Shown here: positions 3,473-30,788 of the stretch, piece after piece
Layout: each line of letters starts with the position of its first letter
Position numbering within the stretch: the first letter of the stretch is position 1
Source: Flammeovirgaceae bacterium
GTDB taxonomy: Bacteria > Bacteroidota > Bacteroidia > Cytophagales > Cyclobacteriaceae
Reading direction: 5' to 3'
DNA length: 33,308 nt
NCBI GenBank assembly: GCA_023251155.1
Contig: JAHEZH010000038.1
Location: 9,468 to 42,775 of the forward strand
Notes under the pieces: model-generated
What the model was told of the DNA's origin: nothing
Database searches by the model: none
Seen by the model: only the letters and a program-made list of their open reading frames with translations
Translations under genes and position numbers: made by a program

Positions 3473-6073
3473 TCACTTTAACTTCCCCAAAATCTCATTC
3501 AACTTCAGCAACGCCTCCACGGGACTGATGGTGTTGATGTCAATTTTACTGAGCATCTCCTTAACTTCTTTCATTTTAGGATCGGCCTCGAACAAACTCA
3601 TTTGGGGTGTGGGCTTGGGTAGCTCGTCAAACTTCTTCTTCGATTCGTTTTTGTGTTTGTCTTTTTCGAGGAAGTGAAGTATTTCATTGGCACGTAGTAC
3701 TACTTTGTTAGGCATACCGGCCAGCTGCGCCACGTGTATCCCAAAGCTGTGTTCGCTGCCGCCTTCTTTCAGCTTGCGCATGAAGATGATTTTGTTACCG
3801 ATCTCTTTCACGCTCACGTTAAAGTTCTTTACCCGCACCAGGTCTTCGGTGAGTTGGTTCAATTCATGATAGTGTGTGGCAAACAATGTTTTCGCCTTGA
3901 AGTCTTTGTGATTGTGCAGGTACTCCACAATGGCCCATGCAATGGACACACCGTCATAGGTACTTGTTCCGCGACCGATCTCATCCATCAATATCAAACT
4001 GCGATCACTCAGGTTATTAAGAATGCTGGCCGTCTCCGTCATCTCCACCATGAAGGTCGATTCGCCGCGCGAAAGATTATCAGAAGCACCTACGCGTGTG
4101 AATATTTTATCGACAATGCCCAGTGTCGCTGCTTCAGCCGGAACGAAACTTCCTATCTGCGCCAGCAATACAATCAGTGCTGTTTGTCTCAGCAAAGCAG
4201 ACTTACCCGCCATGTTAGGTCCGGTGATAACCAGTATCTGCTGCTTCTCGTTATCGAGATAGATGTCGTTAGGCACGTACGTCTCTCCTACGGGCAATTG
4301 TTTTTCAATTACCGGGTGGCGGCCACCTTTGATATCAATGATGGTGGTTTCATTGATGGAAGGCTTGACATATTTATTGGCGCGTGCCACCCCCGCAAAG
4401 GAAAGCAAGCCATCGAGCATGGCAATCACTTTTGCATTCTGTTGTATTTGCGTAATGAAATCAGCGGCATGTACGATAAGTTCCTGAAAAAGCTTTTGCT
4501 CGATCACACCCAGCTTATCTTCGGCATGAAGAATTTTTTCTTCGTACACTTTCAGCTCCTCCGTGATGTAGCGCTCGGCATTTACCAATGTCTGCTTACG
4601 TATCCAGTCGGCAGGTACTTTATCTTTGTTGGCGTTGCTTACTTCAAGGTAATAACCGAATACCTTGTTGTAGGAGATTTTAAGCGAGTTGATTCCGGTG
4701 CGATCTACTTCTCTCTTCTGAATTTGTAAAAGGTAGTCCTTACCCGAGAAAGCAATTGCTCTTAATTCATCCAGCTCGGCATTTACTCCTTCTTTAATAA
4801 TACCTCCCTGGTGTATCAGCATGGGAGCATCTTCCTTCAACTCCCGTTCAATCTTTTCCAACAGAAAGTCGCACCGATGCAATTGATCACTTGCCTTCTT
4901 CAGTTCATCCGAGTTCTGCACCGCCAGATGCTCTTTGACCGGCAGGATAGCCTGCAGGGATTTTTTGAGTTGAATGAGTTCGCGTGGATTAATGCGGCCT
5001 ACGGCTACTTTAGAAATCAATCGCTCCAGATCGGAAATGTGGCGCAATTGCTCAATGACGATGGCCGACAGTTCATATTCCTTATGAAAATGATCCACTA
5101 TGCGCAAACGCTCTTCAATGGCTATTTTATCTTTCAATGGCAACACCATCCACCTGCGCAACTGGCGCGAGCCCATGGGGGTTACGGTCTGATCCAATAT
5201 CTGTAACAGCGGCACTCCGCCTTCATGCTGCGGAGAAACCAACTCCAGGTTACGAATGGTAAACTTGTCCAGCCACACATAATGCTCTTCATCAATCCGC
5301 GAAAGCGATGCGATATGATGTGTGTCTTTGTGCTCGGTCGCCTCGAGGTAATGAAGAATAGCACCCGCTGCGATGATGGCTTCGTTCAATCCATCAACAC
5401 CAAAACCTTTGAGCGTAGCGGTTTTAAATTGCTGTATCAGTTTATCATGAGCAAAATCAAATGCATACACCCAATCATCCAAGGTGAAGGTGGCGTAATC
5501 CTCTCCCAGCAGCGTATCAAATTTATCGCGGTGCGACTTGCAGTAAATCACTTCTGCCGGGCGCAGGCTTTGAATGAGCTTAAGGATGTAACTCTCTGTT
5601 CCCTGCGCACAATAGTATTCACCCGTGCTGATGTCAAGAAAAGAAACGCCATAGAAGTTTTTGCCTGCGAAGATGGAGCAGAGAAAATTATTCTGCTTGC
5701 GTTCTAATACATTATCGTTGAACGACACCCCGGGCGTAACCAACTCGGTAACTCCACGCTTTACAATTCCTTTTACTGATTTGGGATCTTCCAGCTGATC
5801 GCAGATGGCCACACGATGACCGGCACGTACCAGCTTGGGCAAGTAGTTGTCCAGCGAATGATGAGGAAAACCGGCCAGTTCAATTTCGGAAGCAGAGCCG
5901 TTGCCTCGCTTGGTGAGTGTGATATCGAGCACCTTGCTGGCTTTGATGGCATCGTCACCAAAGGTCTCATAAAAATCGCCTACCCGAAAAAGTAATAATG
6001 CCCCCGGATACTTCGCCTTGATGACGCTGTATTGCTTCATTAACGGGGTCTCCATTGCGCCTGGTCCTGCCAT
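3473..6073 (-). CDS. mutS: DNA mismatch repair protein MutS
   Basis: This 866-aa protein has the normal length of bacterial MutS and the full domain order. The N-terminal mismatch-recognition motif is GDFYETFGD, with Phe34 and Glu36 matching the Phe-x-Glu that inserts at the mismatch. Connector, lever and clamp regions follow. The ATPase has Walker A GPNMAGKS at about residue 618, Walker B/signature DEIGRGTSTYDG, and ATHYHEL near the end. MutS binds mispairs and small loops and recruits MutL; no mutL is in the window. The start at 6073 gives MAGPGAMETP; an internal ATG at 6055 gives METPLMKQY, closer to many homologues, so the start may be six codons later. The gene stands alone. Confidence 0.97.
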   Translation of the reverse strand: MAGPGAMETPLMKQYSVIKAKYPGALLLFRVGDFYETFGDDAIKASKVLDITLTKRGNGSASEIELAGFPHHSLDNYLPKLVRAGHRVAICDQLEDPKSVKGIVKRGVTELVTPGVSFNDNVLERKQNNFLCSIFAGKNFYGVSFLDISTGEYYCAQGTESYILKLIQSLRPAEVIYCKSHRDKFDTLLGEDYATFTLDDWVYAFDFAHDKLIQQFKTATLKGFGVDGLNEAIIAAGAILHYLEATEHKDTHHIASLSRIDEEHYVWLDKFTIRNLELVSPQHEGGVPLLQILDQTVTPMGSRQLRRWMVLPLKDKIAIEERLRIVDHFHKEYELSAIVIEQLRHISDLERLISKVAVGRINPRELIQLKKSLQAILPVKEHLAVQNSDELKKASDQLHRCDFLLEKIERELKEDAPMLIHQGGIIKEGVNAELDELRAIAFSGKDYLLQIQKREVDRTGINSLKISYNKVFGYYLEVSNANKDKVPADWIRKQTLVNAERYITEELKVYEEKILHAEDKLGVIEQKLFQELIVHAADFITQIQQNAKVIAMLDGLLSFAGVARANKYVKPSINETTIIDIKGGRHPVIEKQLPVGETYVPNDIYLDNEKQQILVITGPNMAGKSALLRQTALIVLLAQIGSFVPAEAATLGIVDKIFTRVGASDNLSRGESTFMVEMTETASILNNLSDRSLILMDEIGRGTSTYDGVSIAWAIVEYLHNHKDFKAKTLFATHYHELNQLTEDLVRVKNFNVSVKEIGNKIIFMRKLKEGGSEHSFGIHVAQLAGMPNKVVLRANEILHFLEKDKHKNESKKKFDELPKPTPQMSLFEADPKMKEVKEMLSKIDINTISPVEALLKLNEILGKLK

Positions 6074-6080
6074 AAGTCGG

Positions 6081-6088
6081 CAAATATA
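6081..6088 (-). promoter_or_regulatory. candidate -7 element (TATATTTG) of mutS
   Basis: Read on the minus strand, TATATTTG fits the Bacteroidetes TAnnTTTG -7 consensus exactly and ends 7 bases before the mutS ATG at 6073. No clear TTTG -33 box is at the expected distance. If active, the transcript would be nearly leaderless. Confidence 0.4.
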
Positions 6089-6156
6089 AAGCGCTATTGC
6101 TCATTCAGAATCTTTTAGCCTGATAAAAAATACCGTCCGCTTGTTCGTGCACCGGT

Positions 6157-10498: not shown

Positions 10499-11038
10499 GT
10501 GAAACGACTTGTCGCCATATCTTTTCTCGCCGTATTCCTGTTCAACCTGGTAGGATATTATGGTGTCTATTTTGGATTGCGTGTCAGCGCCGATCAGGCA
10601 TTGAGAACCCAGCTTGATAATCACGCTTACAATGAAAATGAAACGGTCACGTTAAAAATTCCATTCTCCCTTCCCTACCAAACCGACTGGGCAGGATCTT
10701 TTGAGCGGGTGGACGGAAATTTTGAAAAAGAGGGTCAATCCTATAAGCTCGTGAAGCAAAAGGTAGAGCGCGATACACTGATTATTGTGTACATCAAAGA
10801 TCAAAAAGCGACCAGCCTTCTTGAATCATTAACCGAGTTTGTTCACGCCAGCACCGATTCTCCACTTGCCAAAAAAGCCTCCCAGCTGATGAAGACCTTT
10901 GCTAAAGACTACATTGGCACACGCAATGAAATACAGACCTCCAGCACTGGCTGGTCATTAGATGAAACCTTTTCAGAGCCACAGTATACCACACGTGGTC
11001 TCTTCGAAAAAATTGCTTCTCCACCACCCAAAGGGTAA
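10499..11038 (+). CDS. membrane-anchored protein of unknown function
   Basis: The frame starts at a GTG (10499) directly after a TAG and encodes 179 aa. One hydrophobic segment at residues 4-25 is followed by a soluble, presumably periplasmic part. The segment VTLKIPFSLPYQTDW, then FERVDGNFEKEGQSYKLVKQK and RDTLIIVYIKD, recalls hypothetical proteins of Bacteroidetes that I cannot name further. The C-terminus ends in PPPKG. It lies 257 bases upstream of the AhpD-like operon, so a shared role is possible but not shown. No catalytic motif is visible. Confidence 0.6.
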   Translation: MKRLVAISFLAVFLFNLVGYYGVYFGLRVSADQALRTQLDNHAYNENETVTLKIPFSLPYQTDWAGSFERVDGNFEKEGQSYKLVKQKVERDTLIIVYIKDQKATSLLESLTEFVHASTDSPLAKKASQLMKTFAKDYIGTRNEIQTSSTGWSLDETFSEPQYTTRGLFEKIASPPPKG

Positions 11039-11156
11039 TCTTTTTTTTATGGAAATGCCTGCTGCGATACGCAGTGAGTGCTTATTGTTTCAGTGAGCAT
11101 CGCTGTGGCATTCAACATTTCAAATTCACGTTATCGTTACCTGGTAATACTGGATG

Positions 11157-11174
11157 GTGACGCACGTTCGTCAC
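11157..11174. other. hairpin in the gap upstream of the AhpD-like operon
   Basis: GTGACG-cacgtt-CGTCAC is a perfect 6-bp stem with a 6-base loop. It lies in the 257-base gap that otherwise holds a T8 run right after the stop at 11038 and the stronger leader hairpin at 11227-11264. I see no open frame of note in this gap. Confidence 0.35.
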
Positions 11175-11226
11175 GGCATTTCTCCTTATTAAAAAATCGT
11201 AGTTACTGGTTTACTTATTAGATGAG

Positions 11227-11264
11227 GAAACGGGCTGGCTTATGGTTTAGACCAGCCCCGTTTC
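11227..11264 (+). promoter_or_regulatory. leader hairpin just upstream of the AhpD-like operon
   Basis: GAAACGGGCTGG (11227-11238) pairs with CCAGCCCCGTTTC (11252-11264), giving 12 pairs with one bulged C and a 13-base loop. It ends 31 bases before the ATG of the first gene of the seven-gene cluster. It lacks a U tract, so it is more likely a 5'-leader structure (stability or control) than a terminator. Confidence 0.5.
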
Positions 11265-11295
11265 AAATCTTCACCTGCTTAACCGTTTCATTTTT

Positions 11296-11856
11296 ATGGC
11301 TTATATCAAAGTAGAAGAACACTTACCCGGTATTACCGGATTGCTCGAATACCGCAAAGACTCGGCGGAGCCTATTCGCGACCTTACACAATTTTTATTG
11401 CGCGGCCCCAATAGTTTAACCGAAGGAGAGCGCGAGTTGATTGCCACCGTTGTATCGCACCACAATGCATGCACGTTCTGCACCTCGGCACATACAGCCG
11501 CTGCCGATTTACTTCTGGGCGAAAGTACTACAGCTGCCTGTGTGAAAGCAGACATTGAAACGGCACCGGTGAGCGAAAAGATGAAAGCGCTGCTCACCAT
11601 TGCCAGGCAAACACAACAAAGTGGTAAAGCCGTAACTACGGAAAGCATCGCACGCGCAAAAAATGCCGGAGCTACTGACGTAGAAATTCATGACACCGTT
11701 CTGATTGCCGCACTCTTTTGCCTCTACAACCGGTACGTCGATGGCCTTTCCACTTTTACACCTACCGATCCCGGTTTTTATAAAGGCCTTGCCGATCGCA
11801 TTGTTCATCATGGCTACACCCGCTTACCCAACGGATACGATCATCTGAAAAAATAA
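11296..11856 (+). CDS. AhpD-like (carboxymuconolactone decarboxylase family) protein 1
   Basis: This 186-aa cytoplasmic protein belongs to the AhpD/CMD superfamily (peroxidase-related branch). Glu47, Cys59, Cys62 and His66 (in ACTFCTSAH) have the same spacing as Glu118/Cys130/Cys133/His137 of mycobacterial AhpD, the thiol-based proton-relay centre. AhpD's second His between the cysteines is Phe here. The C-terminal half has HDTVLIAALFCLYNRYVDGL, shared almost exactly with its two paralogues downstream. I infer thiol-dependent redox activity rather than carboxymuconolactone decarboxylation. It is the first gene of the seven-gene cluster, 36 bases before the TonB receptor. Confidence 0.85.
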   Translation: MAYIKVEEHLPGITGLLEYRKDSAEPIRDLTQFLLRGPNSLTEGERELIATVVSHHNACTFCTSAHTAAADLLLGESTTAACVKADIETAPVSEKMKALLTIARQTQQSGKAVTTESIARAKNAGATDVEIHDTVLIAALFCLYNRYVDGLSTFTPTDPGFYKGLADRIVHHGYTRLPNGYDHLKK

Positions 11857-11892
11857 AATCCTTTAACCCACACTTCACCCAAGCACGACCAC

Positions 11893-14664
11893 ATGAAAAA
11901 AACGTTACTCCTCTTTAATCTGCTTCTCTTACTTTGTTACTCTGCACTGGCGCAAGAGACTAACATATCCGGTACGCTCACCGATGCGGAGACCCGTTCT
12001 CCGATTGCAGGAGCTAACATCGTTATCAAAGGAAAACTTACCGGCACTACTTCTGATGCAGAAGGAAAGTATTCATTGTCTACTTCGATCAAGCTTCCCT
12101 TCACACTCGCTATCTCTTTGCTCGGCTATCAAAAGCAGGAGGTCGAAATCACGGAGGCCAATCAAACTGTTTCAGTAAGCCTTACTCCCAGCGCAGAGAT
12201 TCTGAACGAAATGGTTTTCTCGGCATCGCGTGTGGAGGAAAATATTCTTCAGTCGCCCGTGGCTATTGAAAAGATGGACTCACGTGCCATTCGCGAGACT
12301 CCGTCTGTTAATTTCTATGACGGATTACAAAATATCAAGTCGGTGGAGATGGTGACCAGTGGTTTGACTTTCAAGCAAATCAATACCCGCGGATTCAACA
12401 GCACCGGTAATTCGCGCTTCCTGCAACTGGTAGATGGTGTGGATAACCAAACACCCGGATTGAACTTTGCCGTAGGCAATTTATTCGGTTCATCCGATCT
12501 GGATATGGAAAGTGCTGAGTTGATTCCCGGTGCAGCATCGGCACTATATGGGCCTGTTGCTTTCAACGGCGTTTTAATGATGCGCACCAAAGATCCATTT
12601 CAATACCAGGGATTAAGCGCACAGGTAAAGGCGGGTGTAAATCACATCAATGAAAAATACGCAGATCCAAAAGGATTATACGACTTTGCTATCCGCTACG
12701 CGAACGCATTTAACAACAAGTTCGCGTTCAAAGTAAACGCTTCTTATTTCACCGGTACCGATTGGTACGCGACCAACTATACCGATGTTGACCCCAACAC
12801 TCCGGTGGAACAACGTGGCGATCGTAATCCTGCACGCAATGCACTGAATATTTATGGGGATGACGATGCCCGTACGCTGTCCGGCAATATTGGCCGTGTA
12901 TCGCGCACCGGCTATGAAGAACGTGCCCTGATGAACTATGACTCTTACAGCCTCAAAGCAAATGCAGCTCTTCATTACCGCGTGAGCGATAATATCGAGT
13001 TGATCTATCAATACAACTACAATCAGGGAAGAGCGGCTTATACAGGAAGTAATCGTTTCATGTTGAACGATTTCAACTTCCAGCAACACCGTGTGGAGAT
13101 GAGAGGAAGCAATTACTTTGTGCGTGCTTACGCAAGTATTGAAGACTCCAATAATTCATACAATGGAAAAGGATTAGGTCAATTGATTAACAAAACATGG
13201 GTACGCGATTTAAATGGAAATATAGTAAGCGCTGACCAGGCCGATAACATGTGGTACACCCGATATGAATCAGCCATACCTGATAAAAACAACGTCAGCG
13301 CTGCTGATCAGGCAGCGGCACGCGCCTTCGCGGATCAGGGAAGATTCTTACCCGGCTCTCCTGAATTTGAAGAACAGAAGAAAAGACTGATCGCTACTCA
13401 AGGATTAAGCGGTGCTGGTATCCTTAGCCAAAGCAAACTGTACCATGCTGAAGGTCAGTATGACTTCAGTGATAAGATTAAAGTAATTGACCTGTTGGCC
13501 GGAGGTAATTTCCGCTTGTACGATATGTTCACCAACGGAACGTTGTTTGATGATCTGAATAACAAAATCACCATCAAAGAGGGAGGGGCATTTGTGCAGG
13601 CATCGAAAAGATTACTGGCCGAAAATTTAAAATTAACAGCTTCTATGCGTTACGATAAGAACCAGAATTTCAATGGACGATTCACTCCGCGAGCATCGGC
13701 CGTATACACTGTAGCCAGAAATCACTACTTCCGTACTTCTTTCCAAACAGGTTTCCGCAACCCTACACCGGGTGATCAATACATCAAGCTGAATGCAGGC
13801 CCTATCACTATCCTTGGTGGTGTGCCTGACAACAGCAAAGGAATGAACGTGTATGAAAATTCATTCACCTCCACTTCACTAGGGCCATTCTTCGGAGCAT
13901 TTGGTGCTGCAATGGCTCAAGGTGCTCAGCCACAACAAGCAATTAATCAAACCAAAGATTTATTAGTAAAATCAAATGTGCCTTACATCAAACCTGAACG
14001 AATTCAAAGTTTTGAAGTAGGATATAAAGGAGTATTCAATAACAAGATCGTAGTCGATGTGAATTACTATTTCAGCAGCTACAATGATTTCCTGTTAAAT
14101 CAGGTGGTGATGCAGCCAAACAGTCCCGTATTAGGTGCTGATGGAAAAATCAATCCACAAGCTGCGCAGGATCTGTTAAGTGGAAACAGTCACTTGTTCC
14201 AATTATATACTAATGCAAGTGATCGTGTTACTTCACAGGGAGCTACGGCTGGTCTTACTTTCCTTCTTCCAAGAAACTACATCATTGGTGCAAACGGAAC
14301 ATGGGCATCATTTGACTTGAAGAATGCCAACATCAATGATATCCCCGCATTCAACACACCGAAGTACAGAACTACTGTTACGTTTGGCAACAGCGCTATC
14401 ACCAAGAACATTGGCTTCAACATAGCATGGCGCTGGCAAGATGCGTTCGACTGGACCAGTACTTTCAATCAGTTAAGACCAGGTCGTATCGAAGCGTACA
14501 GCATTGTTGATGCACAGGTAAGTTATAAAGTAGCAATCATCAAATCGGTAGTAAAACTTGGCGCGAATAACCTTTTCAACAATCAGGTGTATCAGGCATA
14601 TGGTTCTCCTGCTATTGGTGCCATCTATTATGCAAGCATCACATTCGATCAATTATTTCGCTGA
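11893..14664 (+). CDS. TonB-dependent outer-membrane receptor with carboxypeptidase-like N-terminal domain
   Basis: This 923-aa receptor has a signal peptide cut near A-L-A-Q (about residue 20). A CarboxypepD-regulatory-like fold (about 24-105, ISGTLTDAETRSPIAGANI) follows. The plug (about 110-230) includes NTRGFNSTGNSRFLQLVDGV and LIPGAASALYGPVAFNG. The rest is a 22-strand type barrel ending YYASITFDQLFR. No SusD-like partner follows, and the length is below most SusC proteins, so polysaccharide uptake is less likely. The MFS transporter starts 11 bases downstream, arguing that the pair moves one substrate from outside to cytoplasm. The substrate is unknown. Confidence 0.93.
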   Translation: MKKTLLLFNLLLLLCYSALAQETNISGTLTDAETRSPIAGANIVIKGKLTGTTSDAEGKYSLSTSIKLPFTLAISLLGYQKQEVEITEANQTVSVSLTPSAEILNEMVFSASRVEENILQSPVAIEKMDSRAIRETPSVNFYDGLQNIKSVEMVTSGLTFKQINTRGFNSTGNSRFLQLVDGVDNQTPGLNFAVGNLFGSSDLDMESAELIPGAASALYGPVAFNGVLMMRTKDPFQYQGLSAQVKAGVNHINEKYADPKGLYDFAIRYANAFNNKFAFKVNASYFTGTDWYATNYTDVDPNTPVEQRGDRNPARNALNIYGDDDARTLSGNIGRVSRTGYEERALMNYDSYSLKANAALHYRVSDNIELIYQYNYNQGRAAYTGSNRFMLNDFNFQQHRVEMRGSNYFVRAYASIEDSNNSYNGKGLGQLINKTWVRDLNGNIVSADQADNMWYTRYESAIPDKNNVSAADQAAARAFADQGRFLPGSPEFEEQKKRLIATQGLSGAGILSQSKLYHAEGQYDFSDKIKVIDLLAGGNFRLYDMFTNGTLFDDLNNKITIKEGGAFVQASKRLLAENLKLTASMRYDKNQNFNGRFTPRASAVYTVARNHYFRTSFQTGFRNPTPGDQYIKLNAGPITILGGVPDNSKGMNVYENSFTSTSLGPFFGAFGAAMAQGAQPQQAINQTKDLLVKSNVPYIKPERIQSFEVGYKGVFNNKIVVDVNYYFSSYNDFLLNQVVMQPNSPVLGADGKINPQAAQDLLSGNSHLFQLYTNASDRVTSQGATAGLTFLLPRNYIIGANGTWASFDLKNANINDIPAFNTPKYRTTVTFGNSAITKNIGFNIAWRWQDAFDWTSTFNQLRPGRIEAYSIVDAQVSYKVAIIKSVVKLGANNLFNNQVYQAYGSPAIGAIYYASITFDQLFR

Positions 14665-14675
14665 TCTAAATCAAC

Positions 14676-15905
14676 ATGGAATTAACAGCTACAACGAATC
14701 AGCCCACAGAGCGAATCAGTGCTCACCTGTGGATTGCTTTTGTGCTCTGCTTTATCGTAGACATACTAAGCGGCACCGTGTCTACGCTGATGTCCGTATA
14801 TCTGCCCGTGGTAGTGAAGGATTTACTGGGTGATGTAAGTGGGCAGCAACTCGGCAAAGTGAGTGCCTATATCAATTCACTTTTTATTTTAGGATGGGCA
14901 GCAGGAGGTTTTATCTGGGGCATGATCAGTGATCGTATTGGTCGTTCCAAAGCATTGATCTTTGCTATGGGCTCGTATGGCACTTTCACGGTACTTACCG
15001 GCTTTGCTTCCTCATGGGAATTGGTTGTTGCCTTCCGTTTTCTATCCGGCTTTGGAGTAGGAGGAGTATTGGTCATTGCACCAATACTTCTTTCCGAACT
15101 CTTCCCTGAAAAATCGCGCTCCGTTTTTGTTGGAATACTATCCATTGGTTTTCCAATCGGAATATTCTCTGCCGGACTTGTAAACAACCTGATACCTACG
15201 TGGCGTCAGGGCTTTTTAATCGGCAGCATTCCCGTTGGTATCGCCATCATTTCGATCTGGGCGTTGAAGGAATCAGAGAAATGGAAAAATGCAACCAGTG
15301 TCCATTCCATTTATGGCAAATCATTATTCGCGCCTGAATACAGAAACAACCTATGGAAAGGAGCGGTCATCTTTGGGTCGATGCTCATTGGATTATGGGC
15401 CATCTTCTCATGGCTGCCTACATGGGTACAAAGTTTAATCACCGATACGGATGGGCAAAAAGAAAGAGGATTGAGCATGATGCTGATGGGTGCTGGCGGA
15501 TTAGCCGGAGGCTTCTTCTCCGGATGGCTTTCCAACGGCCTGGGTGTGCGCAAGGCGATGGTCATGTGTTTTTCTGCCTGCATTGTTTTATCATTCCTTC
15601 TCTTCGGATGGAACACCTCCTTTTCAAAAATCATATTCGTTGAGATTGCCACAATGGCTGTTTTCTTTGGATTCAGCCAGGGATTATTGTCCGTTTATAT
15701 TCCTCAGTTATTTCCTGTTTCACTTCGCGCAACAGCTACCGGTTTCTGTTTTAACATGGGCAGACTATTTACCGCTGCTGCCGTTTTCTTCATTGGTACA
15801 TTGGTAACAAAGCTGGGAGGTTATGGCAATTCGCTGCTCACATTCTCCGGTGTATTCGTCATTGGCCTCCTTGCTATTTATTTCACTAAAGACAAAGCAA
15901 ACTAA
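14676..15905 (+). CDS. MFS transporter, organic-acid/metabolite:H+ symporter type
   Basis: This 409-aa protein has about 12 membrane segments. The MFS motif A lies between TM2 and TM3 (GMISDRIGRSKAL). SELFPEKSRSVFVGI follows TM4, and QLFPVSLRATATGFCFNMGR lies in the second half. These motifs are typical of the sugar-porter-like aromatic-acid/metabolite symporter group. It probably imports a small organic anion, or exports one; direction cannot be read from sequence. It is tightly packed: 11 bases after the TonB receptor and 2 bases before the second AhpD-like gene, so translational coupling is likely. Confidence 0.9.
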   Translation: MELTATTNQPTERISAHLWIAFVLCFIVDILSGTVSTLMSVYLPVVVKDLLGDVSGQQLGKVSAYINSLFILGWAAGGFIWGMISDRIGRSKALIFAMGSYGTFTVLTGFASSWELVVAFRFLSGFGVGGVLVIAPILLSELFPEKSRSVFVGILSIGFPIGIFSAGLVNNLIPTWRQGFLIGSIPVGIAIISIWALKESEKWKNATSVHSIYGKSLFAPEYRNNLWKGAVIFGSMLIGLWAIFSWLPTWVQSLITDTDGQKERGLSMMLMGAGGLAGGFFSGWLSNGLGVRKAMVMCFSACIVLSFLLFGWNTSFSKIIFVEIATMAVFFGFSQGLLSVYIPQLFPVSLRATATGFCFNMGRLFTAAAVFFIGTLVTKLGGYGNSLLTFSGVFVIGLLAIYFTKDKAN

Positions 15906-15907
15906 CT

Positions 15908-16453
15908 ATGGCACATATTAAAGTTCCGGAAGGTGTTCCCGGTATTCGCAGCCTGGTCATGTTCCGGCCAGAGACAGGGAAGCCCTTATATGAATTGGCA
16001 CAAATCCTGTTGCGTGATGAGTCACCACTTAGTCCCGCAGAACGTGAACTGATTGCCACACATGTATCCTCACGCAATGAATGTATGTTTTGCATGAGCA
16101 GTCATGCTGCGGCAGCACGTGAGCTGTTGGGTGATCAGAAAGAAGTAGTGGATTGCGTCATTAAAGATGTGAACACCGCACCTGTTTCTCCGAAGATGAA
16201 AGCGCTGTTGAATATAGCAGGCAAAGTGCAGGTGAATGGGAAACAAGTGAAGCCTGAAGACATCGAAGAAGCACGCCAACACGGTGCCCATGATCGCGAT
16301 ATACACGATACCGTTTTGATTGCCGCCACCTTCTCCTTGTTCAATCGCTATGTCGATGGACTTGCCAGTTTCACGCCCACCGACCCCAAAGCCTATGAAG
16401 AGATGGGCAAGCGCATGTCATCGATGGGGTATGTTTTACCTCAACCCGCTTAA
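15908..16453 (+). CDS. AhpD-like (carboxymuconolactone decarboxylase family) protein 2
   Basis: This 181-aa protein aligns without gaps to the 11296 gene over its first 75 residues. It keeps Glu47, Cys59, Cys62 and His66 (ECMFCMSSH), the centre of AhpD-type thiol chemistry. It also keeps the late block HDTVLIAATFSLFNRYVDGL and ends with FTPTDPKAYEEMGKRMSSMG. The start ATG follows the transporter stop by only 2 bases. It is closer to the third copy at the N-terminus (MAHI, PGIR, FRPET) than to the first. The subunits may form mixed oligomers with its paralogues, since AhpD proteins are trimers or hexamers; that is inference. Confidence 0.87.
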   Translation: MAHIKVPEGVPGIRSLVMFRPETGKPLYELAQILLRDESPLSPAERELIATHVSSRNECMFCMSSHAAAARELLGDQKEVVDCVIKDVNTAPVSPKMKALLNIAGKVQVNGKQVKPEDIEEARQHGAHDRDIHDTVLIAATFSLFNRYVDGLASFTPTDPKAYEEMGKRMSSMGYVLPQPA

Positions 16454-16484
16454 TTAAAATAACCGGCCCTAATCCCAATACCAT

Positions 16485-18716
16485 ATGAAAAAATTAACTT
16501 CACTCGTACTCTTTGGTTTAATCACCTGCTTGCTCATTACCTGCAGCAGAACACCTTCATGTCATGAAGAGATGCTGGCATTACTCCAGCAAGTCCGGAA
16601 GGAAACACGCGTAGCCGATAATACTTTCAGTCCGGAAGGTAAAATAACGTACATGGATTCGTTGCTTAATTTACCTCACAGCACACCCGGGCAAATTGCC
16701 TATTGCAAATACCTGAAGGCGAATATTCTTCTGGAAATGGGAGAAGAGAAAAAAGCCATTGCCCTTTTCCAATCTATTCAGGAAGATGCTACGCCTGCGC
16801 AGCTTAGCAGAATTATTCGTGATCTGGGTATTGCCCAGCTGCGCGAAGGCGAACGCTCCAATTGCATCTCCAATCATGCTGCCGAATCCTGCCTGATGCC
16901 TGTTCGTGGATTGGGTGTACATCAGGATGCCAGTGGTTCCTCCAAAGCGATCGATCTTTACCTGTCACTTCTCAAAGAAAATCCAAAAGACCTGGAGTCC
17001 ATGTGGTTGTTAAATCTTGCCTACATGACACTGGGCGAATATCCATCCAAAGTACCGGCTCAGTACCTGTTGCCGGGAATGAATGGTGATACGACCGTAA
17101 CGGTGAAACCCTTTCAGGATATTGCTGCCGGTCTGAAGCTCGATATAAAAAACATAGCCGGAGGAAGCATCATCGAAGATTTCGATAACGACGGCTACCT
17201 GGATCTGGTTACATCAAGTATGGACTTAAGTGAATCCATGCATTACTTTAAAAACACAGGCACGGGCAGCTTTACTGATCTTTCCTTTCAATCGGGATTA
17301 AGCCAATTCACAGGCGGGCTTAACATGGTTCAGGCCGATTATAATAATGATGGATATACTGATATACTGGTGCTGCGGGGAGCATGGAAAGGAAAGTATG
17401 GCCATGAGCCCAATTCATTATTAAAAAATAATGGCGATGGCACATTCACCGATGTAACTACCATCAGTGGCCTTCTTTCTTTTCACCCCACACAAACAGC
17501 TACATGGAATGATTTTAATAATGATGGCTGGTTAGACGTTTTCATTGGTAATGAAAGCGGTGTAATGATGGAAGATACGCGCCATCCCTGTGAGCTGTAT
17601 ATGAGCAACCAGGACGGTACATTCCGCGAAGTTGCCAATCGTGCCGGATGTGATGTGAAACTGTATGTAAAAGGGGTGACTTCGGGTGACTATGATAACG
17701 ATGGATATAAAGATCTTTTTTTATCTACCATGAATGGCAAAAGAGTTTTACTGAAAAACAAAGGGCAAAATAAAGAAGAGATTCTCTTCGAAGATGTTAC
17801 GCTGCAGGCGGGCATCGCTGGTACATATGGTAACAGTTTCCCCACCTGGTTCTGGGATTATGACAACGATGGCTGGTTGGACATTTTCACGTGCGACTAT
17901 ACCTTCAAAAAATCGCTGGCATTCTATGCAGCGGCCGAAAAGCTGCACCTACCGGAAGGCAATCCTGAAAAGATGTTACTCTACCGCAACAATCACGATG
18001 GCACTTTTACCAACGTAGCCGGCCATATCGGGTTAGATAAAGTCGTCTTTGCCATGGGGGCCAACTTCGGTGATATCGACAATGACGGATATCTCGATAT
18101 GTACCTGGGAACAGGTAATCCTCAGTATCAGTCACTCGTACCGAATAAGATGTTTAAAAACATGGGAGGTAAAAAATTTGCTGATGTTACCACTTCCGCC
18201 CGTGTTGGTCACCTGCAGAAAGGACATGGCGTGTCGTTTGCTGACTTAGATCACGATGGTGATCAGGACATCTACATTGAACTGGGCGGAGCATACAAAG
18301 GAGATGCCTATCAGAACGCATTGTTCCTCAACCCGGGCCAGAACACCAACAACTGGATCAAGCTACAGCTACAGGGAACAACCGCTAATCGTGGTGCGAT
18401 CGGCACGAAAATAAAAGTAACGTTCAGAGAGAATGGTGTTCAGCGCAGCGTTTACCGCGATGTGAATTCAGGTGGAAGCTTCGGTGCTTCGCCTCTACGC
18501 AGAGAGATTGGGATAGGACAGGCCACCGTCATTGATGAAATAGAAATACAATGGCATGGAAGCAAAACGGTGCAGAAGTTCACCAACATCCATCCAAATC
18601 AATTCATCTGTATCACAGAAGGAGACAGGGCACTCAAACAACTGCCACATCAACCCATCAACTGGATCTTGCCTGATGCGCTTTGCTTGCCGGGTACACT
18701 TGCCTCACTCAACTAA
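16485..18716 (+). CDS. CRTAC1-family FG-GAP/UnbV exported lipoprotein
   Basis: This 743-aa protein has a lipoprotein-like signal (Cys20 in LLITCS; Thr at -1 is unusual). A helical TPR-like region covers about 55-210 and contains Cys127, His131, Cys136 and His146, a pattern found in this family that could bind metal. From about residue 228 come seven VCBS/FG-GAP calcium loops of the DxDxDG type: DFDNDG, DYNNDG, DFNNDG, DYDNDG twice, DIDNDG, DLDHDG. The end (about 620-715) is an ASPIC/UnbV domain with GAIGTKIKVTF and NSGGSFGASP. I infer a surface or periplasmic protein that handles the substrate of the neighbouring receptor. Its reaction is unknown. Confidence 0.87.
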   Translation: MKKLTSLVLFGLITCLLITCSRTPSCHEEMLALLQQVRKETRVADNTFSPEGKITYMDSLLNLPHSTPGQIAYCKYLKANILLEMGEEKKAIALFQSIQEDATPAQLSRIIRDLGIAQLREGERSNCISNHAAESCLMPVRGLGVHQDASGSSKAIDLYLSLLKENPKDLESMWLLNLAYMTLGEYPSKVPAQYLLPGMNGDTTVTVKPFQDIAAGLKLDIKNIAGGSIIEDFDNDGYLDLVTSSMDLSESMHYFKNTGTGSFTDLSFQSGLSQFTGGLNMVQADYNNDGYTDILVLRGAWKGKYGHEPNSLLKNNGDGTFTDVTTISGLLSFHPTQTATWNDFNNDGWLDVFIGNESGVMMEDTRHPCELYMSNQDGTFREVANRAGCDVKLYVKGVTSGDYDNDGYKDLFLSTMNGKRVLLKNKGQNKEEILFEDVTLQAGIAGTYGNSFPTWFWDYDNDGWLDIFTCDYTFKKSLAFYAAAEKLHLPEGNPEKMLLYRNNHDGTFTNVAGHIGLDKVVFAMGANFGDIDNDGYLDMYLGTGNPQYQSLVPNKMFKNMGGKKFADVTTSARVGHLQKGHGVSFADLDHDGDQDIYIELGGAYKGDAYQNALFLNPGQNTNNWIKLQLQGTTANRGAIGTKIKVTFRENGVQRSVYRDVNSGGSFGASPLRREIGIGQATVIDEIEIQWHGSKTVQKFTNIHPNQFICITEGDRALKQLPHQPINWILPDALCLPGTLASLN

Positions 18717-18748
18717 AAAATTATTCAACACTTAAAAGAATACAACTA

Positions 18749-19807
18749 ATGAAAATACCTACCGAACCCGTTGGAAGCATTCCCCGTCCTGTCTATCTGC
18801 AGGAAGCAATAAAGTCGTTTGCTCAAGGGCAGATACCTGAAAAAGAACTGGCTGCCAAAACGGAACAAGCTTTAAAGGAAACCATTCAGCAACTGGAAGC
18901 CACCTGTTCTCCTGTCATTAGTGACGGAGAGCAATCCAAACCAAGCTTTGTTACATATCCCATCCATGGCAATAAGCAGCTTGATTCCAATGGGGTAGTT
19001 ATTCCCTTTGCTGATGGACACACCCGTCAGCTGCCAAAGCTAACCGGTGGGCCGTTTCGTTATCAGAATTACGCAAGCAGCTACGTTGAAAAAGCGAAGT
19101 CACTTACACGTTTACCGGTAAAGCAAGCCGTTATTTCTACCTCCGCTATCAGTTTACTTTATCCGCAGGAAGGCATCGCGGACTATTCACATGATCAGTT
19201 CATCCAGGATCTGATCCATGAATCGGAAGCAGATATACGCCAGTGTTTGAATGCCGGTGCGTATAATGTGCAGATCGATTTTACAGAAGCACGTCTTGCT
19301 CTGAAGCTTGATCCTTCCCGACAATTACTACAGCGTTTCATTGATTTAAATAATCAAGTGCTGGATCGCTTCACGCAAGCAGAGAGAAAAAAGATTGGCG
19401 TCCACAGCTGTCCTGGTGGCGATCATGATTCCACTCACAGTGCGGATATCAGCTATGCGGATTTACTCCCCTATTTATTTCAACTTCGTGCCGGTAACTT
19501 TTATCTGGAATACGCAGCAGAAAAAGAGAAGAAGTCAACGTTGCAGGCCATCAGGGAGTTCTCCAAAAATGATCAACGTATTTTTCTGGGGGTAACAAAT
19601 GTATTGGATCCACATGTGGAAACGCCTGAAGAAGTGTGTGCGTTAATAATGGAAGCGGCCAAAGTTATACCTGTGGATCGACTGGGCACAACCGATGATT
19701 GTGGCTTCTCTCCTTTTGCGGATGATGTTTCCACGGCGCGTGAAACAGCATTCGCCAAAATCAAAGCACGCGTGCAGGGAACATTGCTTGCTGAAACAAA
19801 ATTATAA
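18749..19807 (+). CDS. MetE C-domain-like zinc-dependent alkyltransferase
   Basis: This 352-aa protein starts at ATG 18749 (MKIPTEPVGSIPRP); the frame further upstream overlaps the previous gene and is not needed. It corresponds to the C-terminal barrel of cobalamin-independent methionine synthase only; full MetE is about 750 aa. Likely zinc ligands are His219 and Cys221 (GVHSCPGGD), Glu254 (FYLEYA) and Cys318 (TTDDCGFSPF), matching MetE His641/Cys643/Glu665/Cys726 in order. Epoxyalkane:CoM transferases are also single-barrel members with HxC...C. I infer alkyl transfer to a thiol in the cytoplasm. Methionine synthesis is not supported because the N-terminal half is absent. The third AhpD-like gene follows after 16 bases. 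Confidence 0.85.
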   Translation: MKIPTEPVGSIPRPVYLQEAIKSFAQGQIPEKELAAKTEQALKETIQQLEATCSPVISDGEQSKPSFVTYPIHGNKQLDSNGVVIPFADGHTRQLPKLTGGPFRYQNYASSYVEKAKSLTRLPVKQAVISTSAISLLYPQEGIADYSHDQFIQDLIHESEADIRQCLNAGAYNVQIDFTEARLALKLDPSRQLLQRFIDLNNQVLDRFTQAERKKIGVHSCPGGDHDSTHSADISYADLLPYLFQLRAGNFYLEYAAEKEKKSTLQAIREFSKNDQRIFLGVTNVLDPHVETPEEVCALIMEAAKVIPVDRLGTTDDCGFSPFADDVSTARETAFAKIKARVQGTLLAETKL

Positions 19808-19823
19808 CCAACCAACAACTCAA

Positions 19824-20387
19824 ATGGCACACATCACTTTACCCGAAGGGCTTCCTGGCATTCGCGGACCGATGGCTTTTCGTCCAGAGACAGCAAAACC
19901 ACTCAATGCCCTCGCAGAAATTTTACTGCGCAGGGAGAATTCATTGAGCAGAGGTGACCGTGAACTCATGGCTACGTATGTTTCCTCCTTAAACGATTGC
20001 TTCTTTTGCCAGAATGCACATGGAGGCATTGCACAACATTACCTGCAATGCGATATGGCTTTTATCGATCAGGTGAAGAAAGACTATGAATCGATGCCAC
20101 TGTCGGATAAACTGAAAGCATTACTCTCCATTGCGGGCAGTGTTCAAAAAGGAGGACAACATGTTACCTCTGCACAAATTGAAAAAGCAAAAGCACGGGG
20201 TGCTACCGATATGGAAATTCATGATACCGTGTTGATTGCGGCTGCCTTCTGTATGTTCAATCGTTACGTAGATGGATTGGGTACATGGGCACCACAAGAT
20301 CGGAACATTTATGTAGCGCGCGGGCCAAGAAGAGCCGAAGAAGGTTATGAAAATTTTGATCCGATGGAACGCCTTGCTGCCGGGTAA
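19824..20387 (+). CDS. AhpD-like (carboxymuconolactone decarboxylase family) protein 3
   Basis: The ATG at 19824 (MAHITLPEGLPGIRG) is chosen by alignment with the two paralogues and gives 187 aa; the frame upstream overlaps the previous gene. Glu47, Cys59, Cys62 and His66 (DCFFCQNAH) are intact, as is HDTVLIAAAFCMFNRYVDGL. The C-terminus differs from its paralogues (GTWAPQDRNIYVARGPRRAEEGYENF, given here only to mark the divergence), so the copies may have separate partners. It is the last gene of the cluster; a 182-base gap and an ABC gene follow. I infer redox or peroxidase-related function, substrate unknown. Confidence 0.87.
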   Translation: MAHITLPEGLPGIRGPMAFRPETAKPLNALAEILLRRENSLSRGDRELMATYVSSLNDCFFCQNAHGGIAQHYLQCDMAFIDQVKKDYESMPLSDKLKALLSIAGSVQKGGQHVTSAQIEKAKARGATDMEIHDTVLIAAAFCMFNRYVDGLGTWAPQDRNIYVARGPRRAEEGYENFDPMERLAAG

Positions 20388-24521: not shown

Positions 24522-25409
24522 ATGAAAGCCTTACTCATCGGCAACGATATTAACAATGCCACCTCCGATTATTCGTGGAACAATTTACTCCAGGATCTTA
24601 TTGAATACGCGCAGCTAAAAGAACAGCCCCCTGTTATGGAAGGCAAACCCTTCCCCATGCTCTACGAAGAGATTTTTCTTAATTCGGCTAAACAATACGG
24701 CACTAAAGAGAAACGGATAAAAACGTATATCGCAGTAAAAGCCATGCGTTTGCAGCCCAACGAAATCCACAAAGAGATCATGAATATGGATATTCCTGTG
24801 CTGCTCACCACCAATTATGATCTTACACTCGAATCAACACTCAAAGCGCAGCCCGAGCACATCCGCAATGCTGCCGCTATACGCGAAAACCGGTATAGTC
24901 TATACCGTGTTAATCAGGTGGATCATCATCGCGTATGGCACATTCATGGAAGTGCGGCCAATCCTTCATCCATCACCCTGGGCTATGAGCACTATAGCGG
25001 TTACCTACAACAGATGCGCAACTATATGGTGGTAGGAAAAAAAGGTACTGAAAGTCAGAAAAGCGAACAGGCACTGGCGCGCAGAATCAAGGAGGACTCC
25101 GTTAAACACAATAGCTGGATCGATTACTTCTTCACGCATGACATCCACATCTTCGGACTCAATCTCGACTTCGTGGAAATTCACTTATGGTGGTTGCTCA
25201 CGTATCGCGCTCGCACCATTTTGTTGAATAAGGTGAAACTCAAAAACAAAATCTATTACTACTATCCGCAACACTATGCAGAGAAATCGCAACACAAACT
25301 TCAACTTTTCAAAGCCAATGAAGTAGTAACCGTGCCACTGCCAATGAAAGAGGGTAACCGGATCAGTTACTATCAGCGCGTATTGAAAAAGATTATGGCT
25401 ACGGAGTAG
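24522..25409 (+). CDS. stand-alone SIR2-like domain protein
   Basis: This 295-aa protein resembles the SIR2_2-type family of NAD-binding or NADase domains. Residues 3-11 (ALLIGNDIN) stand where the family has GNGIN. TTNYD with Asn98 and Asp100 is the conserved Asn motif. WHIHGSA holds the likely catalytic His142, followed by SSITLGYEHY. HIFGLNLDFVEIHLWWLL is the later dinucleotide-side motif. There is no signal peptide. Proteins with this domain often act in phage defence by depleting NAD, usually with a second domain or partner. Here there is neither, and the next gene encodes an outer-membrane barrel. I infer a possible single-gene NADase; a housekeeping role is not excluded. It ends with TAG. 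Confidence 0.8.
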   Translation: MKALLIGNDINNATSDYSWNNLLQDLIEYAQLKEQPPVMEGKPFPMLYEEIFLNSAKQYGTKEKRIKTYIAVKAMRLQPNEIHKEIMNMDIPVLLTTNYDLTLESTLKAQPEHIRNAAAIRENRYSLYRVNQVDHHRVWHIHGSAANPSSITLGYEHYSGYLQQMRNYMVVGKKGTESQKSEQALARRIKEDSVKHNSWIDYFFTHDIHIFGLNLDFVEIHLWWLLTYRARTILLNKVKLKNKIYYYYPQHYAEKSQHKLQLFKANEVVTVPLPMKEGNRISYYQRVLKKIMATE

Positions 25410-25480: not shown

Positions 25481-26239
25481 ATGGTTATTGCTAAGTATTA
25501 CCTTTTACTATGGCTGCCGTTGACTGGATTTATAACACATGCACAAACAAATTCATCTGCTCCGGGTATTGAAATGGGGACTATCGTCTACGGTAATTCC
25601 ATCAAAGAAAAAGATTACATCCGAAAATTATCATCCGGCACCAGCCATTTTTCCGGGTCGCTGACAACATCCTATTACGGCCTTAACTTGGAGCGAACCT
25701 TTTTCAACGATCGGCTTGGGATTATTGCCGGAGCCCGTTACTCTAACTCAATCAGTTCAGTGGGGCTCACCGGATTTTTCCACAGGCATTTTGATTACTT
25801 CTATTTGCGCATAAGCGAAGAGGGAACCACGACAACCTATTTAAAGACACAACAACTGAAACAGGTGTCGCACTACCTCGGCATTCCCTTAGAAGTACGT
25901 TACCTGCTATTCAACTCCCGTTTCACCAGGCTCTATTTCAAGGTTGGAAGTGTCTTTGACTTCCTGGTAAAATCGAAAAACGAAGTGGACTTAGCGGTTA
26001 CTACCTCCTCCTTCGATTTAGAGAACACGGCTGCAAACAAACTAGGAACTCCAGACAATTTCTGTCCTTCACTCTATGGAGGTATTGGTTTGCGGCTGGG
26101 CCGAGGAGCACCGCTATTCAATATCGAAATCACACTTCCGTCAGTTCAGTTGAATTCAAACTATTCCACACTGATCAATCCACACGCTGGAGGAGGGCTG
26201 CGCCTGATGTTTCAGATTCCACTTAAAACAAAAAAATGA
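25481..26239 (+). CDS. outer-membrane beta-barrel protein of unknown function
   Basis: This 252-aa protein has a signal peptide ending near T-H-A-Q (residue 22). Alternating hydrophobic strands rich in Tyr, Gly and Ser follow: TTSYYGLNLERTFF, LGIIAGARYS, LGIPLEVRYLLF, RLYFKVGSVFDFL, PSLYGGIGLRLG. The C-terminus, GGGLRLMFQIPL, is a final strand. This is the PorT/OmpW-like small-barrel pattern common in Bacteroidetes. Its stop overlaps the next ATG in an ATGA, so it is translationally coupled to the lipoprotein gene that follows. No specific function can be given. Confidence 0.7.
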   Translation: MVIAKYYLLLWLPLTGFITHAQTNSSAPGIEMGTIVYGNSIKEKDYIRKLSSGTSHFSGSLTTSYYGLNLERTFFNDRLGIIAGARYSNSISSVGLTGFFHRHFDYFYLRISEEGTTTTYLKTQQLKQVSHYLGIPLEVRYLLFNSRFTRLYFKVGSVFDFLVKSKNEVDLAVTTSSFDLENTAANKLGTPDNFCPSLYGGIGLRLGRGAPLFNIEITLPSVQLNSNYSTLINPHAGGGLRLMFQIPLKTKK

Positions 26240-26829
26240 GCAGGCTTATTCTTCTTTTAATTGTGCCTGTTTTAATAGCCGCATGTATTAATCCACCCCC
26301 GGAGGAATTGGACCGGTCTGTATTTATTGCCGATACTCAATATCCCGACTTGCCTGCTTATACCGAATGGGGTTACAATACGTTTGGTGCTCATTACAAT
26401 GAGGATGTATTTCTGTATACCTCCTCCGTAACCGCAAGAGCAACAAAAGACACACTCACTTTTGAGTTCTGCGGCACGCTTAAAAAAGCAAGCCCGCATG
26501 AGAGCGTGACCGTTTATTTTTCATTGGCCGAGAAGCATCCCTCCACTTACGCAGATCTGGTAGCACTGCATGCAACGTCATTTGATCTTACCTCCTCTAC
26601 CGCTATTACCTCGTTGTACGTAAATGGAAAAAGAAAGAAAGGAACAATATCCAATGGTCATCTGGAGTTTAAACGTGCACAGTACTTACTTGTGAACGGT
26701 CAACCCGATCGGGTAATCCTCTCCGGTTATTTCGATTTTCAGTTTTTAACGGATACCCATCAAACCATCACGGTTAAAGACGGGCGCTTCGATATAGGAA
26801 TAAACGGAAATAACTTTTACATGTATTAA
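26236..26829 (+). CDS. lipoprotein of unknown function coupled to the barrel gene
   Basis: This 197-aa protein has a clear lipobox (LIAAC, Cys17) followed by INPPPEE, so it is likely an outer-membrane lipoprotein. The mature part is beta-rich (e.g. DTLTFEFCGTL, VTVYFSLAEKH, VILSGYFDFQFL). No known domain is recognised. It overlaps the preceding barrel gene by four bases (ATGA), suggesting a barrel-lipoprotein pair. The TonB receptor gene starts 72 bases later with its own candidate -7 box. Confidence 0.7.
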   Translation: MSRLILLLIVPVLIAACINPPPEELDRSVFIADTQYPDLPAYTEWGYNTFGAHYNEDVFLYTSSVTARATKDTLTFEFCGTLKKASPHESVTVYFSLAEKHPSTYADLVALHATSFDLTSSTAITSLYVNGKRKKGTISNGHLEFKRAQYLLVNGQPDRVILSGYFDFQFLTDTHQTITVKDGRFDIGINGNNFYMY

Positions 26830-26885
26830 CAACTCACCGCAGTCGTTGATCATTTCTTTATTTTAACAATAGAATAAGTGTTTCC

Positions 26886-26893
26886 TATCTTTA
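26886..26893 (+). promoter_or_regulatory. candidate -7 element (TATCTTTA) before the second TonB receptor
   Basis: TATCTTTA matches TAnnTTTG except for the last base and ends 8 bases before the ATG at 26902. The same octamer lies upstream of the lipoprotein gene at 29029. No firm -33 box was found. Confidence 0.35.
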
Positions 26894-26901
26894 CAGTGAT
26901 T

Positions 26902-29605: not shown

Positions 29606-29640
29606 TAACTCCTGCCATCAAAGCAGGAGTTATTTTTTTG
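29606..29640 (+). terminator. intrinsic terminator after the 29029 lipoprotein gene
   Basis: TAACTCCTGC pairs with GCAGGAGTTA (10 bp, 7-base loop) and is followed by TTTTTTTG. It overlaps the last bases of the convergent ypdA-type gene, whose stop is at 29630-29632. Confidence 0.9.
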
Positions 29641-30592
29641 TGATGTGCTTCATGATCATCTCGGCATGCACACGAGAATTTTCGATAAACCATTTACCCG
29701 TGCGCAATCCTCCACATACTACTCCCGCCAGGTACATTCCCGGAATAGAGGTTTCCATTGTCACCTCATCATATAAGGGAGTATGGGCTGCATCGTCCTG
29801 TATCTGAATACCTGCTGCCTTCAAAAAGCCGAACGGAGGTTGATAGCCCGTCATGGCAAGTACAAAGTCATTATCTATTGTACGTTCTCCTTCGGGTGTA
29901 TTGATAACAACTTTATCTCGGGTAATCGCTTTGATGGTCGAATTGAAATAGGCTTTGATTGATCCTTCACTGATACGGTTTTCAATATCCGGCTTCACCC
30001 ACTATTTCACGGTATCGCGAAGCGAAGATTCACGCACCACCATCGTTACTTCCGCTCCCTTTCGCCACGTTTCCAGCGCAGCATCTACTGCCGAATTAGC
30101 CGCTCCCACAATCACTACTTTTTGAGCATAGTACGGGTGTGGCTCATCATAGTAGTGCTTTACTTTCGGCAGGTCTTCACCCGGCACATGGAGCAGGTAA
30201 GGCAAATCATAGAAACCCAATGCAAGTATTATCGACTTTGACTGATACGTTGCCTTACTAGTGCCGACCCGAAACACCGCTTCTTCTTTTTTTATGGACA
30301 CTACTTCTTCATACAAACGCACCTCCAGATGATTGGAAGCGCACACCCTTCGGTAATACTCCAGTGCTTCGGCTCGTGTTGGTTTGGGGTTATTGGATAT
30401 GAACGGAACTCCACCAATCTCCAAACGATCGGAAGTGGAAAAGAATGTCATGTTCACCGGGTAGTTATAGAGCGAATTAACAAGGCAACCCTTCTCAATA
30501 ATGACATAATCCAATCCCGCCTTTTTTGCTTCTAATCCACACGCCAGGCCGATCGGCCCTGCCCCGATGATCAATACCTCTTTTATTTCCAT
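29630..30592 (-). pseudogene. ypdA: YpdA-type bacillithiol disulfide reductase, interrupted by an in-frame TAG
   Basis: YpdA/Bdr is an FAD- and NADPH-dependent enzyme that reduces bacillithiol disulfide. The start MEIKEVLIIGAGPIGLACG (ATG 30592) carries the FAD motif. VVIVGAANSAVDAALE is the NADPH-side motif. The C-terminal part has AMTGYQPPFGF and AGVVCGGLRTGKWF. After about residue 196 (RDTVK) codon 30004-30002 is TAG, and the same frame continues as WVKPDIENRISEGSIK to a normal stop. Homologues commonly read VKYWV here, so one base (30002) turns a Tyr codon into amber. All motifs around it are intact. It may be a recent nonsense mutation, a base-call error, or a suppressed codon. Two genes elsewhere in the window end with TAG, so TAG is used as a stop. 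Confidence 0.85.
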
Positions 30593-30788
30593 TCGTAAAG
30601 TAGCTGTTTCGCTTTTCAACACTAATCGGAATCTTTAAGCCTTCAAGTTATCAATAATTAAAACACTTGTTATGGTTCAAAAAGAGTAAACACCTTACCC
30701 CTTAAATCCGTTTCCATAATCTGGCAAAACGATTGCTTAATAATTAACTTACCCGTTCACAAACAGCAAATTACCCCATTATCGCTTT

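Follow-up and report, generated by a model that had tools for sequence, protein, structure and literature searches.

Organization of the gene run

The window, that is, the whole stretch of 33,308 nucleotides analysed here, comes from contig JAHEZH010000038.1 of a Flammeovirgaceae bacterium and contains, at positions 11296-20387, seven open reading frames (ORFs) on the forward strand, separated by 36, 11, 2, 31, 32 and 16 bases. They encode three paralogues related to carboxymuconolactone decarboxylase (CMD) and AhpD, a TonB-dependent receptor, a major facilitator superfamily (MFS) transporter, an FG-GAP/UnbV_ASPIC protein and a single-barrel MetE-like protein. A first-pass annotation of this DNA had described the same seven genes and gap sizes, which the ORF coordinates bear out; its assignments of the receptor, the MFS transporter, the FG-GAP/UnbV_ASPIC protein and the single-barrel Meth_synt_2 protein hold in Pfam. 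It had left out the gene upstream, here called SPPP, which is a partner of the run.

10499..11038, + strand: SPPP gene; 179 amino acids, envelope protein; its family has no name and matches neither Pfam nor NCBIfam
11039..11295, no strand: intergenic gap between SPPP gene and AhpD1; 257 bp, with a single weak hairpin at 11060-11076
11296..11856, + strand: AhpD1, CMD/AhpD-like (Pfam, NCBIfam); E47-C59-C62-H66; in a clade of 16 rows, support 100/100
11893..14664, + strand: TonB-dependent receptor with CarbopepD_reg_2, plug and barrel (Pfam); under the SusC cut-off
14676..15905, + strand: MFS transporter (Pfam); nearest to the aromatic-acid/H+ symporter subfamily, under its cut-off
15908..16453, + strand: AhpD2, CMD/AhpD-like (Pfam, NCBIfam); E-C-C-H kept; in a clade of 12 rows, support 100/99
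16485..18716, + strand: FG-GAP/UnbV_ASPIC protein (Pfam); N-terminus lipoprotein-like by eye
18749..19807, + strand: single-barrel MetE-like protein of core-MetE type (Meth_synt_2 in Pfam, NCBIfam, alignments, structure comparison)
19824..20387, + strand: AhpD3, CMD/AhpD-like (Pfam, NCBIfam); E-C-C-H kept; in a clade of 12 rows, support 98/99

The starts of the MetE-like and AhpD3 genes were set at ATG codons; in the longest-ORF listing they begin earlier, at 18683 (TTG) and 19695, respectively. As the gene caller reports the longest ORF, some starts are overlong and some genes are masked (AhpD2 and AhpD4 of locus L106 emerged only in the AhpD alignment). Every annotated protein family in the run is already known. 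The run is best read as two modules: AhpD1-TonB receptor-MFS-AhpD2 followed by a further AhpD copy (AhpD3 or AhpD4), plus an ASPIC lipoprotein-MetE-like pair inserted before AhpD3.

Three distinct AhpD paralogues

Proteins of the AhpD family act as peroxidases and thiol reductases. All three window copies match the Pfam CMD family and exceed the curated NCBIfam cut-off of TIGR01926 (81.8 bits) with scores of 86.8, 99.5 and 90.4 bits for AhpD1, AhpD2 and AhpD3. Identity to AhpD1 is 52% for AhpD2 and 46% for AhpD3. When the three were aligned, no gap was found before column 82, and E47, C59, C62 and H66 were invariant, as were the late blocks HDTVLIAA and NRYVDGL, in agreement with the first-pass annotation. 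The spacing of this centre, E-x11-C-x2-C-x3-H, is that of Mycobacterium tuberculosis AhpD. Solved structures related to AhpD2 are 2pfx, 3c1l, 2oyo, 2prr and 6k40.

In the wider alignment, the same centre was found in 61 of 68 whole rows. The seven other rows comprise four with the first cysteine one position earlier (CxxxC), two with a single cysteine and one with neither. There are relatives in which one or two copies have lost the CxxC spacing or the cysteines while another copy of the same run retains them; in loci L108 and L109, AhpD1 and AhpD2 are altered and AhpD4 is intact. Such a mixture of intact and altered copies is compatible with a putative mixed-subunit AhpD, the hetero-oligomer that had been proposed for the window copies.

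A tree of the copies, advised by the first-pass annotation, was built from 68 of 70 rows (two fragments were omitted) and rooted at its midpoint. Each window copy falls in a clade of its own, with 16 rows for AhpD1 (support 100/100), 12 for AhpD2 (100/99) and 12 for AhpD3 (98/99), a separation that goes beyond chance. Since each clade has members in several other Bacteroidota lineages, the paralogues are older than the lineage of the window and were co-inherited.

Recurrence of the run in other genomes

AhpD1 was searched against 395 genomes of the class. Matches at E <= 1e-40 were obtained in 22 of them, the own genome included, and in six others the identity exceeded 60%. All six were inspected, together with the neighbourhoods of three (G324, G342, G365) of the 15 genomes below this value; the AhpD copies of these three fall outside the AhpD1 clade. 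The order AhpD1-receptor-MFS-AhpD2-AhpD4 was found in four of the six (G010, G029, G059, G431). In G019 the run is AhpD1-MFS-AhpD3, and in G401 AhpD1 is followed by a DUF3179 gene at the contig end.

A scan of genome contigs for the MetE-like gene yielded 55 loci in Bacteroidota, Acidobacteriota, Actinomycetota and others; as these loci (L016-L070) were fetched via this gene, it is present in all of them by construction. An AhpD gene lies within 6 kb of it in 15 of the 55 loci, and in 10 of the 39 for which 6 kb were available on both sides. Six of the MetE loci (L028, L032, L038, L040, L051, L066) carry AhpD1 and/or AhpD2, an MFS gene, AhpD3 and the MetE-like gene. AhpD4 and a SusC/SusD-like pair are also present in five of these six, the exception being L028, which meets a contig end. 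The ASPIC gene adjoins the MetE-like gene in the window, L017, L021 and L122, and is separated from it by one SPPP gene in L020, L029 and L118.

On a tree of the MetE-like proteins (59 of 62 rows, three partial rows being omitted; 16 with AhpD nearby), the AhpD label changes 10 times, and by a quick method at least nine of these changes are forced by supported branches. The linkage between AhpD and MetE-like genes thus reflects repeated association or loss and not one inherited neighbourhood. Within the order, the MetE-like gene was found in seven of 291 sampled genomes, the own genome included, and it was absent from the four same-genus genomes of this sample. Versions of the run occur in the cultured Bacteroidota Chryseolinea serpens, Dyadobacter bucti and Pollutibacter soli.

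The MetE-like protein

The MetE-like protein has 352 residues and a single barrel. Its TIGR01371 score is 30.5 bits against a cut-off of 929.95, so it is not a double-barrel MetE. Its fold is closest to that of a folate-independent core methionine synthase. By structure alignment it is about 21% identical to the MesD structure 3rpd, an identity that does not place it close to MesD; the families MesA-MesD are themselves less than 30% identical to each other (PMC7857596). Residue equivalences were placed by motif and alignments. The counterparts of the homocysteine-binding residues S433, E484 and D599, whose roles are taken from the same paper, are S10, E61 and D177, which are kept in 60, 60 and 61 of 62 rows, the remainder being gaps. 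For the reference zinc ligands H641/C643/E665/C726, the His and Cys equivalents are H219 and C221 (62 of 62 rows each) and C318 (61 of 62).

Ordinary methionine synthesis was rejected as the main role of this protein, because the genome has a full-length MetE; it also has a MetH match, interrupted by two internal stop codons. A search of the genome for MesX (DUF1852) gave no match, and the positive control was likewise silent. In L016, L027, L029, L052, L118 and L121, the MetE-like gene lies near a TauE/SafE-like transporter gene and/or a gene for a short Asn-Gln-rich repeat protein.

Transport and surface proteins

The SusC score of the window receptor is 98.8 bits against a cut-off of 368.25 and the run has no SusD, so it does not qualify as a SusC/SusD locus. 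Receptors of the same type, 58-62% identical, are present in L106-L109. In several relatives, a SusC/SusD pair takes the place of the window-type receptor: L038 has both SusC (509.8 bits) and SusD_RagB, and L032, L040, L051 and L066 have them by similarity to L038. Elsewhere in the window, at 24522-25409 and 25481-28935, a gene for a SIR2-like domain protein (PF13289) comes before a weak barrel match, after which lie a gene with no assignment and a further TonB receptor.

The SPPP family

The SPPP protein, named here after its C-terminus, matches no model in Pfam or NCBIfam. Its predicted architecture consists of an N-terminal helix (by eye a membrane anchor), a small beta domain and an invariant C-terminal PP. 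The structure model has a helix at residues 2-40, then four strands, and is poor past residue 140; fold comparison of this model gave no trustworthy match. A profile of 17 rows found members in 109 of the 395 class genomes at E <= 1e-6. Four are in the own genome (window 10499-11038 and, in G000, contigs C262, C275 and C167), and many members of the family seem to start at GTG or TTG and end in PP or PPP.

In many relatives, an SPPP member likewise precedes the run. Among 20 loci with a higher-scoring SPPP, 13 contain both a PAP2 gene and an OMPc14 gene, the latter a barrel by eye without Pfam match; SPPP loci were hand-picked from the higher-scoring hits, not drawn at random. In 20 loci with a lower-scoring SPPP, the gene directly downstream is labelled as a receptor in 16 (by blastp, at 21-31% identity) and is an unlabelled gene of receptor size in three; one meets a contig end. 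SPPP is read as a candidate general envelope partner of TonB receptors. As such, a family without Pfam or NCBIfam model would offer a separate opening on how Bacteroidota TonB receptors work.

Other arrangements of the family were also seen. An SPPP-OMPc14-PAP2 run recurs in L131-L147, often with a 'QGCVAIR' protein, a DoxX-like gene or a second receptor, and in L143 with a MetE-like gene as well. On contig C262 of the own genome (L112) there is a second AhpD run, SPPP-AhpD-OMPc14-PAP2. In L028, a tRNA at 6071-6152 lies immediately upstream of the SPPP-AhpD run and may mark an insertion site.

A possible uptake-and-redox module

As its core recurs in distant relatives, the run probably represents a real uptake-and-redox system. 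We propose, with a probability of roughly 0.45, that it is a TonB-fed module with specialised AhpD copies, to which methyl transfer by the MetE-like protein is an optional addition. An organic substrate would cross the outer membrane via the TonB receptor, with help from SPPP and possibly also from the ASPIC surface lipoprotein, and the MFS carrier would then move it into the cytoplasm. There, the three AhpD-like proteins, probably as specialised or mixed subunits, would act on the substrate or its product as CxxC thiol oxidoreductases, a chemistry that is known elsewhere. Where present, the MetE-like protein might methylate homocysteine in a folate-independent manner; its homocysteine-binding residues would be indirect support for dealkylation.

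Several observations weigh against this proposal. Neither a MetE-like nor an ASPIC gene was found in the AhpD1 run of any of the six genomes above 60% identity. A whole-genome search at E <= 1e-20 found no MetE-like gene in four of them (G010, G019, G059, G431); in G029 it lies about 0.4 Mb from the run, and in G401 on another contig, beside SPPP, OMPc14, PAP2 and a DoxX-like gene. In 40 of the 55 MetE loci no AhpD gene was seen within 6 kb; 11 of these 40 are truncated where the contig or stretch ends. At the position of the Glu zinc ligand (E254), 29 of 62 rows have E, 30 Q, two A and one a gap. The MFS transporter scores 155.2 bits for TIGR00895 (aromatic acid/H+ symporter), below the cut-off of 418.55, and no substrate-specific gene was recognised. 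No promoter was conspicuous: a Bacteroidota-type promoter pattern gave one match against 1.95 expected, and on the opposite strand, and there were 6 sigma-70-like sites where shuffled sequence gave 18.3. Riboswitch control was rejected, as Rfam was negative in the window and, in a search of 7 of the 55 MetE loci, had a tRNA as its sole hit. With neither signal, the case for a single transcript is left to the short gaps and the recurrence. Finally, the run is absent beside the AIR-synthase-like neighbour in all eight same-genus genomes fetched, of 12 others that have this neighbour, and a conserved chromosomal position was therefore rejected. The genes that follow this neighbour in the eight genomes differ, save for a 24% match to an ABC protein; the absence fits acquisition or loss alike.

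The first-pass annotation had taken the seven genes as one system for uptake and dealkylation or detoxification. Its two-membrane transport genes and distinct paralogues do belong to a recurring five-gene unit, but the idea of all seven as one conserved unit is not supported, and none of the other loci compared has exactly their order. A rival reading, rated well below the uptake-and-redox proposal, is that the AhpD/receptor/MFS and ASPIC-MetE modules have independent functions, were joined by insertion and share no pathway. The ASPIC gene accompanies the MetE-like gene with no AhpD nearby in L020, L021, L029, L118 and L122, the AhpD core stands without MetE in L106-L109, and four of the six AhpD1 genomes are devoid of a MetE-like gene. 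However, the repeated proximity of AhpD and MetE-like genes, acquired or lost at least nine times and including an Acidobacteriota genome, argues against mere juxtaposition.

The main rival, slightly likelier than this juxtaposition but itself rather unlikely, is oxidant defence, in which the AhpD proteins, with the DUF3179, DoxX-like and PAP2/haloperoxidase-like proteins of relatives, would dispose of peroxides or hypohalites, with the MetE-like protein helping to restore methionine. The peroxidase/thiol reductase activity of the AhpD family agrees with it, as does the presence of PAP2, DUF3179 and DoxX-like genes in related runs, where the DoxX and haloperoxidase matches are under the Pfam cut-off. 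AhpD-like (CxxU) and DUF3179 (UxxC/T) proteins are moreover both listed as selenoprotein redox families (PMC9312934). However, a TonB receptor or SusC/SusD pair with an MFS gene in many fuller runs points to uptake, and a Pfam scan of 26 window genes turned up neither AhpC nor catalase nor methionine sulfoxide reductase. It is very improbable that the AhpD-like proteins act as genuine carboxymuconolactone decarboxylases in an aromatic-acid pathway: the CMD domain and an MFS transporter nearest to aromatic-acid symporters would suit it, but the copies match TIGR01926 and retain the CxxC-H centre, and no ring-cleavage gene occurs among the window genes scanned.

A more specific form of the uptake-and-redox proposal can be framed, which we regard as a long shot. 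The paralogues would form a mixed-subunit thiol-redox enzyme, active and degenerate, on an imported compound. Where the MetE-like protein is present, the methyl group freed would serve a new core-MetE family that makes methionine from an external donor with neither folate nor cobalamin, as in MesX-MesD but with AhpD in the role of MesX. The odds of this were lowered by the four AhpD1 genomes that have no MetE-like gene. If the trio is a mixed enzyme, AhpD-type proteins would have become specialised as co-inherited subunits of nutrient uptake instead of peroxide defence. If the MetE-like protein takes a methyl group from an imported compound, a further folate-independent route to methionine would be added, and the open question of the methyl donor of core methionine synthases could be tested in cultured Bacteroidota such as the three named above.

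In the minus strand of the window, at 29630-30622, a Pyr_redox_3 (pyridine nucleotide-disulphide oxidoreductase) gene has an in-frame TAG after 206 codons and is broken or mis-sequenced.

Comparison with known systems

In the open-licence PMC literature, no paper was found on this gene order or on an AhpD trio with TonB/MFS genes and an optional core-MetE; as only open-licence papers were covered, this is a weak indication of novelty. The window copies resemble the AhpD or 'peroxidase-related enzyme' subfamily TIGR01926 in scoring above its cut-off and in their E-C-C-H centre. They differ from it in that two to six divergent copies occur per run, linked to TonB and MFS genes, and in that some copies of relatives have no CxxC centre. 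With SusCD-type utilisation loci the run shares a TonB receptor and a surface lipoprotein, and some relatives have SusC/SusD and two-component hybrid genes; the window run has neither SusD nor a glycan-degrading enzyme. The COE genes of ECF41 sigma factors (PMC3426412) are comparable in that a conserved neighbourhood is built around a CMD/AhpD-like gene; here, in contrast, there are several copies with transport genes, and no sigma factor is found among the window genes scanned. The core methionine synthases MesA-MesD (PMC7857596) share with the MetE-like protein a single MetE barrel without folate domain, the homocysteine residues and the His/Cys/Cys zinc ligands. The window-type protein is set apart from them by its low identity to 3rpd (about 21%), a Glu ligand that is often Gln and, in some genomes, a link to AhpD.

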